This document shows, piece after piece, positions 7,167-27,515 of a DNA stretch of 64,000 nt (the stretch's first letter is position 1; each line of letters starts with the position of its first letter). The notes under the pieces are model-generated. The model was not told where the DNA came from. It saw only the letters and a program-made list of their open reading frames with translations, and did no database searches. A program made the translations under genes and the position numbers. The DNA is from Bacteroidales bacterium (GTDB lineage Bacteria > Bacteroidota > Bacteroidia > Bacteroidales > WCHB1-69), in the NCBI GenBank assembly GCA_024400835.1, contig JAKSMC010000012.1, positions 1 to 64,000 of the forward strand, written 5' to 3'.

Positions 7167-7197
7167 TTTGCGCCTTTGTCCCTTTTTTGTATCTTTG
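7167..7197 (+). promoter_or_regulatory. Complete Bacteroidota promoter for the DUF1015 gene
   Basis: -33 TTTG at 7167-7170 and -7 TATCTTTG at 7190-7197 with a 19-bp spacer, the consensus layout, 46 nt before the ATG. Confidence 0.82.
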
Positions 7198-7243
7198 CCG
7201 CCTCAAAACTCAAACACAATAATTATTTTAAAATATTAATATT

Positions 7244-12611: not shown

Positions 12612-12619
12612 TATCTTTG
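12612..12619 (+). promoter_or_regulatory. -7 promoter element of the dsrC-like operon
   Basis: TATCTTTG, followed by GCGGCC, about 25 nt before the ATG at 12644. The -33 region is not clear. Confidence 0.75.
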
Positions 12620-12643
12620 CGGCCTATTCAAAAACACTACAAT

Positions 12644-12961
12644 ATGGCAAATATTAATTACGAAGGAAAGAGCTATGAACTCGATGGTGACGGCTTCATG
12701 CTGAAACCGGAAGAATGGACCGAAGGATTGGCTGCTGAAATCGCCAAAGTCGACGGCATCAACGAATTAACAGAAAACCATTGGAAAATTCTGCATTGCA
12801 TTCGTGAAAACTACGAAGAAAAAGGCATCGCGCCCATGGTACGCGTCATTTGCAAGACTTCGGGCCTCAAATTGAAAGAGATATACGAGCTCTTCCCGCT
12901 GGGTCCCGCCAGAGGTGCCTGCCGCGTAGCCGGTCTTCCCAAACCAGAAGGTTGCGTATAA
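12644..12961 (+). CDS. DsrC/TusE-family sulfur carrier protein with both C-terminal cysteines
   Basis: Protein of 105 aa from the ATG at 12644 (an upstream in-frame start at 12617 overlaps the promoter). DsrC family proteins carry sulfur as a persulfide or trisulfide on a flexible C-terminal arm. The arm here is LGPARGACRVAGLPKPEGCV, with C93 and C104 in the C-x10-C layout. That is the signature of true DsrC, which forms the trisulfide product of sulfite reductase DsrAB. TusE (tRNA thiolation) keeps only the last cysteine. No dsrAB or tus genes are in the window. The next gene is a NarI/DsrM-like membrane protein, which suggests that this carrier hands electrons or sulfur to a membrane complex. 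Confidence 0.9.
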   Translation: MANINYEGKSYELDGDGFMLKPEEWTEGLAAEIAKVDGINELTENHWKILHCIRENYEEKGIAPMVRVICKTSGLKLKEIYELFPLGPARGACRVAGLPKPEGCV

Positions 12962-12984
12962 TAGAAACGTAAAATAACAAGAAC

Positions 12985-13629
12985 ATGTTAATCATTCAAT
13001 ATCTTGCGATTGCAGCGGCAGTGATCTGCCTCTGCAGTCTTTTCGTGTTTTTCCTCCGAATCATTCGTCTAGGAAAACCCAAAGACCTATCCGAAAAAAG
13101 TGGTGACACAGGAAAGGGAATTTTATACTCCAACACTGTGGCAATGATGCCGCAGAACAAAGAATCCGCATACCTGCACATCCCCGGATACGCCGCAGGC
13201 ATGCTGTTCCATATCGGAACATTCCTCAGCGCACTCATCTTTGTGCTGTCCTTTTTCCCATTTTTCAATCGTTGGATTTCCGGCCCCGACAAAATACACT
13301 TGATTATCCCTGTGATTCTTGCAGTCACATGCATTTGCGGATACATTCTGCTGTTGCGTCGCGCATTCTCCAAAGATTTGAAGCCGCTGTCCAATCCTGA
13401 CGACTACATCTCCAACATACTGACATCGACATTCCAATTGTTCACGATGCTTTATTTGTTAATGCCGTCTTGCTGCTGTATGCCCACCGCCTATTATGTG
13501 ATGTGCATCATACTGTTCCTCTATTTGCCGCTCGGCAAATTAAGACATCTGGTTTACTACTTTGCAGCACGCTACCATCTTGGATTTTTCTACGGATGGC
13601 GCAATGTATGGCCGAAAAACGAAGACTAA
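12985..13629 (+). CDS. NarI/DsrM-like membrane cytochrome b subunit (putative)
   Basis: Integral membrane protein of 214 aa with about five transmembrane helices: near 3-26, 70-92, 105-127, 148-172 and 170-192. Histidines H65 and H76 (HIPGYAAGMLFHIG) and H188 and H198 (RHLVYYFAARYH) occur in two pairs at the start of one helix and the end of another, as in NarI, DsrM and TmcC, which bind two b hemes. The cytoplasmic PLSNPDDYISNIL segment also resembles that group. The match is remote, so heme binding is inference. It sits 23 nt after the dsrC-like gene in the same operon, which supports a quinone-linked thiol/sulfur redox role. CCC at 163-165 is unusual. Confidence 0.6.
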   Translation: MLIIQYLAIAAAVICLCSLFVFFLRIIRLGKPKDLSEKSGDTGKGILYSNTVAMMPQNKESAYLHIPGYAAGMLFHIGTFLSALIFVLSFFPFFNRWISGPDKIHLIIPVILAVTCICGYILLLRRAFSKDLKPLSNPDDYISNILTSTFQLFTMLYLLMPSCCCMPTAYYVMCIILFLYLPLGKLRHLVYYFAARYHLGFFYGWRNVWPKNED

Positions 13630-13644
13630 CAAGAAACTAAAACT

Positions 13645-15051
13645 ATGACATTAGATTTCCTAGGCGCCACCGAAGAAGTGACTGGCAGCAAATTCATGCT
13701 GACCACCAAAAAAGGCGCAAAAATATTATTAGACTGCGGTATGTACCAAGGCAAAGGCCTTGAAACCGACAAGATGAACAGAGAATTGGGATTCGACCCG
13801 AAAGAGGTGGACTTCCTTCTTCTATCTCACGCTCATATCGACCACTCCGGGCTTATACCTTATATATATAAGTTAGGATTCCGCGGAAAAGTTTTCTGCA
13901 CACCTGCAACGCGAGATCTCTGCGCAATCATGCTGGCAGATTCCGGCAGAATTCAAGAAGCCGATGCCAAACAGTTCAACAAAAAGAAGGAACGTATCGA
14001 CAAAGAACCTATTGAGCCTATCTACACAGAAAAAGATGCCGCTGAATGTATGTCCCAATTTGTGAGCATCCCGAGAGAACTCAAATTCAACATCACAGAA
14101 GATGTATCCATCGAATTTTTCGAAACAGGGCACATGTTAGGCAGCAGTGCTATCTACATCACTTTCAAAGAAGGTAGGAAAGTCCGCACATTATGCTACA
14201 CCGGCGACGTCGGAAGATACAGCAAACGTATCCTCCCCGACCCGATTGCTTTCCCCTATGCAGACTACATCATCACCGAGTCCACTTACGGTGACAGGCT
14301 TCATTCCACTTTGGACGACGCAGACCAGCAACTGATGTTGGTTGTAAAGGACGCCTGCGCAAAAAGACTCGGCAAATTGCTCATCCCGTCCTTTGCCATC
14401 GGCAGAACCCAGGAGATCGTCTACACCCTGCACAGACTCAAACAAGCCGGCAACCTGCCGGATATAGAGATCTTTGTAGACAGTCCTTTGGCCTGCTCCG
14501 CCACCAACATCTACCGCCTACACGATGAGAACTTCAACACAGACATCAGAACGTTCATGGAGAACACCAAAGACCCGTTTGGTTTCGACAATCTCACCTA
14601 TGTTCGCTCCGTTGACGATTCCAAGAAGTTGAACACCTACAATCGTCCATGCATCATCATCTCAGCATCAGGGATGATGGAAGCAGGCCGTATCAAACAT
14701 CACTTGGCCAACAACATCGAAGACCCGAAGACGACAATTCTATGCGTCGGCTATTGCTCTCCGACCACATTGGGAGCCAAGATCATGCGCGGTGATACCA
14801 AAGTTTCCATCTTTGGCGAAGAGCACAAAGTCAGAGCCCATCTCGAGCGCATAGATGCCTATTCTGGTCATGCCGACTACAAAGAGCTCATTCAATACCT
14901 TTCATGCCAGAAGGGTAACAAGAAGCTGAAAAAGATATTCATCGTCCATGGTGAAGGTGAGGTGAGAGATGCTTACGCAAACCATCTCAAGAAAGCAGGC
15001 TTTAAGCAAGCCTACGTTCCCAGTTTCCTCGAACAAACTGAATTAATTTAA
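13645..15051 (+). CDS. Metallo-beta-lactamase / beta-CASP ribonuclease
   Basis: Protein of 468 aa, a YSH1/CPSF-73-like RNA-processing exo/endonuclease of bacteria. The zinc motif is SHAHIDHSG (HxHxDH), with further ligands in FETGHMLGSS and YTGDVGRY. The beta-CASP and RMMBL parts follow: motif A in ITESTYGDR, IPSFAIGRTQEI, ISASGMMEAGRIKHHL, and the last histidine in DAYSGHADYKEL, with FIVHGEG near the C-terminus. Such enzymes act on RNA; the target here is unknown. It is the third gene of the dsrC operon, 15 nt after the cytochrome-like gene. Confidence 0.9.
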   Translation: MTLDFLGATEEVTGSKFMLTTKKGAKILLDCGMYQGKGLETDKMNRELGFDPKEVDFLLLSHAHIDHSGLIPYIYKLGFRGKVFCTPATRDLCAIMLADSGRIQEADAKQFNKKKERIDKEPIEPIYTEKDAAECMSQFVSIPRELKFNITEDVSIEFFETGHMLGSSAIYITFKEGRKVRTLCYTGDVGRYSKRILPDPIAFPYADYIITESTYGDRLHSTLDDADQQLMLVVKDACAKRLGKLLIPSFAIGRTQEIVYTLHRLKQAGNLPDIEIFVDSPLACSATNIYRLHDENFNTDIRTFMENTKDPFGFDNLTYVRSVDDSKKLNTYNRPCIIISASGMMEAGRIKHHLANNIEDPKTTILCVGYCSPTTLGAKIMRGDTKVSIFGEEHKVRAHLERIDAYSGHADYKELIQYLSCQKGNKKLKKIFIVHGEGEVRDAYANHLKKAGFKQAYVPSFLEQTELI

Positions 15052-24495: not shown

Positions 24496-25552
24496 GGTTT
24501 TCAATGAGATTATTAAATTCTAATTTTTCAGATTCCGATAGGAAGTCCACTTGTATAGGGACAATAAAAACAGGCAGCAAAGATACATCTTTTTGCAATT
24601 TCTGAGCTTGCAACCTCATCCAATCTTTTTCCGTAGTGAACAAGACCCTTTTTTCACCTTTCCCAGACATGACAATCCTGTTGATTTGTTCCAATTCGAA
24701 CTTATTGTAGGGGTGATGATCGGGGAAATCGAGATGTTGGCAAACATCATAATGTTGTTGCAGATGTTCCAACAGCGGCAGTGGGCGAGCAATGCCAGTC
24801 AGCAGGACCACTTTTGAATTTTCCAGCATTTGCAAATTTGCGGCTTCAGTAACAGGTTCAGGGCTCGCATATCGGTAATGCGTGAAGAAGAGCGGCTGAT
24901 CATTCCGAATTTTCAAATTGCGGCGCCATTCGTCTCTGTCCACTTCATCATTGGGCGCATCGACTTTGGTGACGATTACGGCATCAGCCACAGAAACCGC
25001 ATCGGGAAATTCCCGCAGCCTACCAGCCGGCATCGGATAATCCTTGAAATAAGGTCGGCGGAACTCTGTCAAGACCAAACGTACTGTTGGTGAGAAATTG
25101 AGATGCTGGTAGGCATCGTCCATGACCACCACATCCGTTTCAGGAGCATATTCGCACAATTTGATCACGCCCTCACGTCGGTCACCATCAACGGCCAAAG
25201 GCAGTTTGGGAAAGCGATAGTGCAACAGCAGCGGTTCATCGCCAATCAAATCAGCTGACAACTTCTCCGTGGGCGTTGTATTGGCAAGGACATAGCCTCG
25301 GGACTTCCTTCCATACCCTCTGCTCAGCATAGCCACATGGTGATGTTTTGACAAAAGTTCCATTAGATAGCCGGCATGCGGGGTTTTCCCCGTGCCGCCG
25401 ATGGCAATATTGCCCACACAAATCACAGGAATTTGCGGTTTGTATGATTGAAGCACGCCCTTTTCGTACAGCTTACGTCGCAATCGCGCGACGTTGCCGA
25501 AAACCCACCCAGCGGGAACCAGCCATCGACGAATCTTAAAGGGTTTGCTCAT
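24473..25552 (-). CDS. lpxK: Tetraacyldisaccharide 4'-kinase
   Basis: Inner-membrane kinase of lipid A synthesis that phosphorylates the 4' position of the disaccharide precursor. 359 aa from the ATG at 25552. The Walker A is GNIAIGGTGKTPH, followed by LSRGYGRKSRGY, GDEPLLL and MDDAYQHL, the family catalytic and DxD-type blocks. The N-terminal RRWLVPAGWVFGNVARLRRKLYEKGVL is the membrane-binding helix region. Start choice: upstream TTG at 25588 lies well inside phoH; the ATG at 25552 overlaps phoH by 17 nt. The gene is part of the M23-phoH-lpxK-punA operon. Confidence 0.94.
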   Translation of the reverse strand: MSKPFKIRRWLVPAGWVFGNVARLRRKLYEKGVLQSYKPQIPVICVGNIAIGGTGKTPHAGYLMELLSKHHHVAMLSRGYGRKSRGYVLANTTPTEKLSADLIGDEPLLLHYRFPKLPLAVDGDRREGVIKLCEYAPETDVVVMDDAYQHLNFSPTVRLVLTEFRRPYFKDYPMPAGRLREFPDAVSVADAVIVTKVDAPNDEVDRDEWRRNLKIRNDQPLFFTHYRYASPEPVTEAANLQMLENSKVVLLTGIARPLPLLEHLQQHYDVCQHLDFPDHHPYNKFELEQINRIVMSGKGEKRVLFTTEKDWMRLQAQKLQKDVSLLPVFIVPIQVDFLSESEKLEFNNLIENHVRRIKK

Positions 25553-27484: not shown

Positions 27485-27507
27485 ATCCGTATTTTTCTTA
27501 AGGGCGG

Positions 27508-27515
27508 CAAAGATA
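27508..27515 (-). promoter_or_regulatory. -7 promoter element of the M23-phoH-lpxK-punA operon
   Basis: TATCTTTG on the minus strand followed by GCCGCC, about 24 nt before the M23 ATG. Confidence 0.76.

Follow-up and report, generated by a model that had tools for sequence, protein, structure and literature searches.

A DsrC protein that carries two cysteines in its arm is usually taken to indicate a sulfur metabolism built on sulfite reductase, and the second cysteine has been reported to occur almost only alongside DsrAB, with few exceptions (PMC3397948, 2012). The question raised by the present locus, which lies in a window of 64,000 nucleotides (the whole stretch of DNA analysed, from a Bacteroidales genome), is what such a protein does beside a gene for a membrane cytochrome in a genome that has no DsrAB. 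A sequence-only reading of the window had proposed that the two proteins form a minimal two-gene unit that reduces DsrC from the quinone pool in a bacterium that is not a classic sulfate reducer, and had suggested as checks a structure prediction of the cytochrome, a neighbourhood survey across Bacteroidota and genome searches for dsrAB, dsrK/hdrD and tusBCD.

A genuine two-cysteine DsrC

The dsrC gene (12644..12961, + strand) encodes 105 residues that match PF04358 over residues 6-105 (E=1.8e-35) and TIGR03342 over the full length (E=8e-30). The nearest solved chains are DsrC proteins of sulfate reducers, solved together with sulfite reductase, and the best of them aligns over 105/105 positions including both cysteines (2xsj_C, E=7e-36). 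Ten residues lie between C93, the CysB of the arm (codon 12920..12922, + strand), and C104, the penultimate CysA (codon 12953..12955, + strand), which is by homology the putative persulfide site; this arrangement is kept in 58 of 59 module relatives. The claim of a genuine DsrC with a C-x10-C arm is thus upheld by the position of the cysteines, by both family models and by the solved structures alike. The equivalent of C104 in A. vinosum DsrC, Cys111, is persulfurated in vitro; when E. coli IscS and cysteine, or just sulfide, are supplied, the penultimate cysteine is the only one of DsrC to become persulfurated (PMC3397948).

Assignment of the protein to TusE was considered and rejected, given the two arm cysteines, a score of 69 bits against the TusE model PRK11508 (cut-off 191) and the lack of any DsrE-family (PF02635) protein when tusBCD-type genes were sought in the window genome. 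Bacteroidales also have a one-cysteine kind of DsrC, from which the equivalent of C93 is missing; in two loci (L059:4318-7119 and L060) its gene sits with genes for DsrE2-like, DUF1641 and FCSD/SQR-like flavoprotein products, which is a different sulfur gene set.

A NarI-like cytochrome b with one predicted heme

The gene that follows dsrC on the same strand after a gap of 23 bp (tmcC-like, 12985..13629, + strand) encodes 214 residues with five predicted transmembrane helices. No Pfam family matched it; among NCBIfam models it matched TmcC (9e-7), HmcE (2.7e-6) and, weakly, QmoC (0.003), with a TmcC score of 28.6 bits that falls short of the equivalog cut-off of 240 bits. Across the 58 members of the family, hereafter TmcC, the HmcE model was matched by 57 and the TmcC model by 38. 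A structure predicted with AlphaFold2 from the 58 sequences (pLDDT 94, pTM 0.86) had NarI as each of its eight best solved fold matches (VIA Z 10.4-10.9), followed in the ranking by mycobacterial EtfD (Z 9.4), while unrelated helical bundles reached Z <=7.3; Foldseek likewise returned NarI with a probability of 1.00, but with an E of 0.016 at best.

Since a Z below 13 is weak for helical bundles, sequence motifs matter for the relation between TmcC and NarI. The sequence profile of TmcC found no match in the PDB, where only the fold comparison gave one, and its direct comparison with the NarI profile is weak overall and leaves the region of H188 outside, so that the equivalence of the histidines rests on short motifs taken together with the fold: TmcC 'LFHIG' (H76) pairs with NarI 'LFHIG' (H56), and TmcC 'PLGKLRH' (H188) with NarI 'PFSRLIH' (H205). 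H188 (codon 13546..13548, + strand) is invariant in 58/58 sequences and H76 (codon 13210..13212, + strand) is present in 57/58, the one exception, L111, resembling a chimeric or frameshifted open reading frame. From the profiles and the model, the protein is predicted to be a five-helix cytochrome b of the TmcC/HmcE/NarI kind, and the proposal of a NarI/DsrM-like membrane cytochrome was accordingly borne out by family models, fold and NarI motif.

The number of hemes is a different matter. The ligands of the two NarI hemes in the E. coli NarGHI structure are H56/H205 and H66/H187. The sequence-only reading had located H65, H76, H188 and H198 correctly and had paired them into two sites, H65/H76 and H188/H198; H65 (54/58) and H198 (41/58), however, form no conserved pair, and none of the 58 sequences has a conserved histidine at the positions of NarI H66 and H187, the ligands of the distal heme. 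Two bis-histidine hemes of the NarI type are therefore ruled out by conservation and by the alignment with NarI. The best reading is that TmcC would carry a single bis-histidine heme (H76/H188), given that these two histidines alone are conserved, that the distal-heme histidines are absent and that EtfD likewise has one b heme. The fold comparison supports NarI/EtfD, and conservation leaves one candidate heme site in place of two. In EtfD the b heme is held by His78/His241, with a putative menaquinone beside it (PMC13083937).

Two further partners, TmcB and Csd

Screening the window genome for CCG domains, which covered the suggested search for dsrK/hdrD, retrieved several proteins, of which one of 431 residues on contig 17 is a DsrK/HdrD-class homologue of TmcB, HmcF and DsrK (5e-93, 2e-87 and 8e-70, respectively). 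Its eight [4Fe-4S] cysteines, together with C321, C356/C357, C396 and C399, are conserved in 13/13 sequences, so that the protein has two [4Fe-4S] sites and an intact set of CCG cysteines. Its score of 312 bits lies below the NCBIfam equivalog cut-off of 735, as does that of TmcC below its own, and a Tmc complex in the strict sense was consequently rejected.

The other partner, Csd, is in the module loci a class V aminotransferase some 386 residues long that belongs to the cysteine desulfurase family TIGR01977. The copy of the window genome, encoded on contig 7, scores above the curated cut-off of this family (4e-128; 428 bits against 377), and the PLP lysine, Lys203, and catalytic Cys341 are present in 57/57 sequences. 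The model of the selenocysteine lyase SclA also matched (E=6e-92), at 308 bits against a cut-off of 525, and identity with SclA was rejected on this score.

The tie between these proteins emerges from a phylogenetic profile of 149 Bacteroidales genomes. DsrC-family proteins occur in 43 of them; in 18 the protein scores high and ends in GAC(K/R)xAGLPKP(D/E)GCV with both cysteines, whereas the 12 lower-scoring proteins examined lack the first arm cysteine. A close Csd orthologue (57-76% identity, all other proteins reaching <=42%) was found in exactly the 18 genomes with two-cysteine DsrC and in no other of the 149, and TmcB in 17 of the 18, spanning 14 genera, and again in no other. When genomes are taken as independent, the hypergeometric P is about 1e-23 for Csd and 2e-21 for TmcB, values that relatedness weakens by lowering the effective number of genomes.

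In 14 of the 18 module genomes the order is dsrC-tmcC-tmcB, and in most of these csd comes after tmcB or faces it; one genome (G148) has a gene between tmcC and a contig-truncated tmcB. The genome without TmcB (G073) has a two-cysteine dsrC followed directly by csd (L047:8323-9838), with tmcC and tmcB missing there and no TmcB found in the genome, which indicates that TmcBC is not indispensable; this organism may rely on another reductase for DsrC. In G122 (L046:1188-9590) dsrC-tmcC-tmcB lies beside a transaldolase-like gene and sufB-sufC-sufD-sufS, and a dedicated csd is found on another contig.

In the window genome dsrC and tmcC are single-copy, and in all 3 genomes of its genus tmcB and csd lie apart from the dsrC-tmcC pair. 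The minimal two-gene unit has consequently to be given up: TmcB is always there in the window genus, and the cysteine desulfurase is equally obligate. The pairing of DsrC with a membrane cytochrome proved real, but as part of a set of four genes whose source of sulfur, Csd, the sequence-only reading had missed.

Linkage and distribution

We surveyed 80 loci in GTDB genomes, found through TmcB. In 56 of them dsrC, tmcC and tmcB are adjacent, with median gaps of 12 and 1 bp. The csd gene follows downstream in the same orientation in 37 loci, is convergent in 7 and lies upstream in 4; it is missing from 10, six of which break off at a contig end or close to it. Another 17 of the 80 hold tmcB alone, as in the window genus; most of these belong to MAGs of the rumen and of horse and deer guts, and they are the closest to the TmcB of the window genome (77-90% identity, the best being L077 from horse faeces). 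Csd and DsrC accompany TmcB also in records labelled Phycisphaerae (L107), Zixibacteria (L124), Eisenbacteria (L127), Aminicenantes (L133), Terriglobia (L137) and CSSED10-310 (L139, L140), a list in which most carriers are MAGs and single labels may be wrong, the pattern resting on no single record. As the position of csd varies among loci, including those of other phyla, the linkage has survived several rearrangements. The set is thus conserved far beyond the window genome, and the usual operon in most relatives is dsrC-tmcC-tmcB-csd, from which the window genus has moved tmcB and csd elsewhere. In the complete genome of Bacteroidales bacterium CF (CP006772), at locus L115, the four genes stand in a row.

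Many module operons have, often directly 5' of dsrC, a gene for a protein of about 80 residues with five invariant cysteines (CxN-x3-C ... C ... CxR ... CPDF), for example at L064:3763-4014 and L052:8842-9081 and in 15 others (alignment A3); it matched no Pfam or NCBIfam family. We considered this cysteine-rich protein (CPN-x3-C ... CPDF) as a fifth core part and rejected it, since by strong matches it lies beside dsrC in 8/18 module genomes only, is absent from the window genus and has homologues in genomes without DsrC.

Absence of sulfite reductase and place of Hdr proteins

No PF01077 protein, be it DsrAB, AsrC or any siroheme NIR_SIR, was found in the 98%-complete window genome, so that such a reductase hidden elsewhere in the genome was discarded as an explanation. 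Nor did any of the 18 module genomes have a siroheme sulfite or nitrite reductase, with controls positive. NIR_SIR proteins occur in 10 of the 149 Bacteroidales genomes, none of them a module genome, an exclusion that taken alone is not significant (P=0.26). Membership of the Dsr pathway of sulfite or sulfate reduction was rejected, DsrAB being absent from the window genome and from the 18 module genomes. The proposal of a bacterium without DsrAB that is not a classic sulfate reducer therefore stands, with no dsrAB or asrC anywhere in the window genome and no ordinary dsrAB-dsrMKJOP set.

The window genome does encode HdrA-, HdrB- and HdrC-like proteins and an HdrDE-like fusion. An HdrB orthologue is present in 50 of the 149 genomes, 10 of them among the 18 that have the module and 40 among the remaining 131 (P=0.035), and HdrABC was accordingly rejected as an obligate partner. 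In genome G000, contig 56 (L010:4476-6627) has genes for an HdrB-like protein of 350 residues and a short HdrA-like flavoprotein of 335 residues, and contig 14 (L011:4887-7009) has those for an HdrC-like ferredoxin of 114 residues and a 592-residue fusion of a membrane domain, a ferredoxin and two CCG domains.

Proposed mechanism and rival explanations

In the known pathway DsrAB makes a DsrC-trisulfide, which DsrMK(JOP) reduces with release of sulfide (PMC10504309). We put at about an even chance that the four proteins Csd, DsrC, TmcC and TmcB mimic the last step of this pathway with sulfur taken from cysteine instead of sulfite. Csd would strip sulfur from L-cysteine, yielding alanine and a persulfide on the conserved Cys341; the sulfane sulfur would move onto C104, at the far end of the DsrC arm, and attack by C93 would free HS- and leave a C93-C104 disulfide, unless the sulfur were held as a trisulfide. 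The CCG iron-sulfur site of TmcB would then open the disulfide with electrons passing from menaquinol through the single heme b of TmcC to TmcB. The net reaction, cysteine + menaquinol -> alanine + H2S + menaquinone, would amount to a small sulfur-based electron sink, with whatever energy gain this might allow.

We favour this cysteine-fed scheme on account of the co-occurrence and linkage of the genes without any siroheme protein, the intact lysine and cysteine of Csd, the two-cysteine DsrC and the full set of TmcB CCG cysteines on a quinone-type cytochrome b, together with the published persulfuration of DsrC by IscS and reduction of its trisulfide by DsrMK. That the quinone pool would supply the electrons for DsrC, as first predicted, is still the most plausible inference. 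The wider claim, that a sulfite-reductase-free, Dsr-like respiration using cysteine-derived sulfane sulfur as terminal acceptor, by way of a TmcBC menaquinol:DsrC oxidoreductase, is distributed over Bacteroidales of guts and sediments and over several other phyla, we hold tentatively and somewhat short of an even chance.

The main objection to the reductive direction is energetic. Persulfides and disulfides have potentials of about -270 to -230 mV and menaquinol one of -74 mV; menaquinol is thus a weak reductant, reduction of a disulfide or persulfide by it is uphill under standard conditions, and electron flow could run the opposite way. The uphill step from menaquinol to DsrC is the same puzzle that DsrMKJOP presents. 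The main rival reading, which we consider unlikely, turns the scheme around: TmcBC would oxidize the DsrC dithiol, or DsrC-bound sulfide, with menaquinone, whereby electrons from sulfide or thiols would enter the quinone pool, for instance on their way to fumarate reductase, and oxidized DsrC would be supplied. Such a reaction is thermodynamically easier, and in known organisms DsrC works both ways, in oxidative and in reductive Dsr (PMC10504309), whereas the obligate cysteine desulfurase supplies sulfane sulfur, that is, an oxidant for DsrC, and no sulfur-oxidation partner was seen, there being no DsrE-type protein in the window genome and no siroheme protein in the 18 module genomes. Profile, linkage and Csd are, as sequence evidence, neutral on the direction of the electrons.

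Cysteine desulfhydrases could free H2S without electrons, which also counts against cysteine respiration, and the G122 cluster beside the suf operon would fit a biosynthetic role as well. That Csd and DsrC feed Fe-S clusters or a thiolated product, with TmcBC turning sulfane sulfur into sulfide, is nonetheless a quite unlikely account: cysteine desulfurases usually serve biosynthesis, and TusE, a homologue of DsrC, is a biosynthetic relay (PMC3397948), but G122 also has its dedicated csd elsewhere, the neighbourhoods read hold no conserved gene for a biosynthetic acceptor, and a presence as patchy as 18/149 misfits essential biosynthesis. DsrC might otherwise play the part of a bacterial heterodisulfide, as a diffusible dithiol/disulfide electron carrier linking membrane TmcBC with a soluble complex of the Hdr type, after the manner of DsrC and Flx-Hdr in Desulfovibrio; the Hdr-like proteins of the window genome and the interaction of D. 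vulgaris DsrC with FlxABCD-HdrABC (a result cited in PMC10504309) agree with this, while the distribution of HdrB, which unlike that of Csd is not obligate, makes it improbable. Most improbable is that the desulfurase acts as a selenocysteine lyase delivering selenium to DsrC, given the shortfall of the SclA score, the families of DsrC and TmcB, which act on sulfur, and the lack of noticeable selenium genes beside the operon in the neighbourhoods read; in its favour are the SclA match itself and the inclusion in TIGR01977 of EF_2568, a presumed selenocysteine lyase of selenium loci (PMC2276186).

Relation to known systems

Like the DsrC-DsrMK(JOP) system of sulfite and sulfate reducers, some of the latter having DsrMK alone as well, the module joins a DsrC with two arm cysteines to an iron-sulfur subunit of the CCG kind, homologous to DsrK, and to a NarI-like cytochrome b that is analogous to DsrM. 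It differs in having neither DsrAB nor any other siroheme protein, the putative sulfur donor being a cysteine desulfurase instead of the sulfite reductase, and in membrane subunits that resemble TmcBC/HmcEF more than DsrMK by score. TmcB/HmcF and TmcC/HmcE of the Desulfovibrio TmcABCD and Hmc complexes, which have been proposed to feed electrons to DsrC, are the best-scoring families, yet the module subunits stay far below the curated cut-offs (312/735 and 28.6/240 bits), DsrC and csd belong to the operon, and no cytochrome c3 subunit was seen in the module neighbourhoods read. Mycobacterial EtfD (PDB 9ojn) resembles the module in its NarI-like domain, its single bis-histidine heme near menaquinone and its CCG-type iron-sulfur clusters; its parts are fused into a single chain, its clusters are non-catalytic and its partner is ETF, whereas TmcB keeps the full CCG cysteines and is encoded with DsrC. 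In the IscS-TusA-TusBCD-TusE relay of tRNA thiolation a cysteine desulfurase likewise sends sulfur towards a protein of the DsrC/TusE family, but TusE has one arm cysteine where the module DsrC has two, the window genome has no TusBCD-type protein, and the module includes a membrane redox complex.

We found no description of the set of DsrC, TmcBC and cysteine desulfurase in the open-access literature, a result that does not by itself prove absence. The parts are known; a set of them that lacks sulfite reductase and has a cysteine desulfurase as obligate member appears new, and there is a good chance that it represents a new physiological process. The 18 of 149 Bacteroidales genomes, together with the other phyla, depart from the usual reading of two-cysteine DsrC and are a systematic, large exception to the published association with DsrAB, for which cysteine as the source of sulfur would be the explanation. 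Were the proposal true, DsrC with a membrane CCG complex would be a general route for reducing protein-bound sulfur independently of sulfite, cysteine would be a quinone-linked source of H2S in sediments and in guts, those of ruminants and horses among them, and annotations of sulfate or sulfite reduction that rest on DsrC or DsrMK-like genes would call for caution. In which direction and with what energetics electrons pass between DsrC and quinone would, moreover, become testable in a four-protein system without DsrAB.

Promoter and neighbours of the locus

A candidate promoter element of the Bacteroidales type, TATCTTTGCGGCC, was found by pattern search 5' of dsrC-tmcC (12612..12624, + strand). 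The promoter-like motif TATCTTTGCNGCC has 9 sites on both strands of the window against 0.29 expected, others lying for example at 7190-7202, 24573-24585 and 27503-27515, and a kindred element stands 5' of the unlinked csd and of the unlinked tmcB; as the motif is common in the window genome, it is not specific to the module. The neighbours of dsrC-tmcC, HU and a SpoU-type methyltransferase upstream and a beta-CASP hydrolase and an RmlD-like protein downstream, look to have no apparent tie to sulfur. The beta-CASP metallo-hydrolase gene (13645-15051 of the window) adjoins dsrC-tmcC in all 3 genomes of the window genus; its product matches the type VII CRISPR Cas14 model with 417 bits (1.5e-124), below the cut-off of 800 bits, and is probably an RNase of the aCPSF1-like group.
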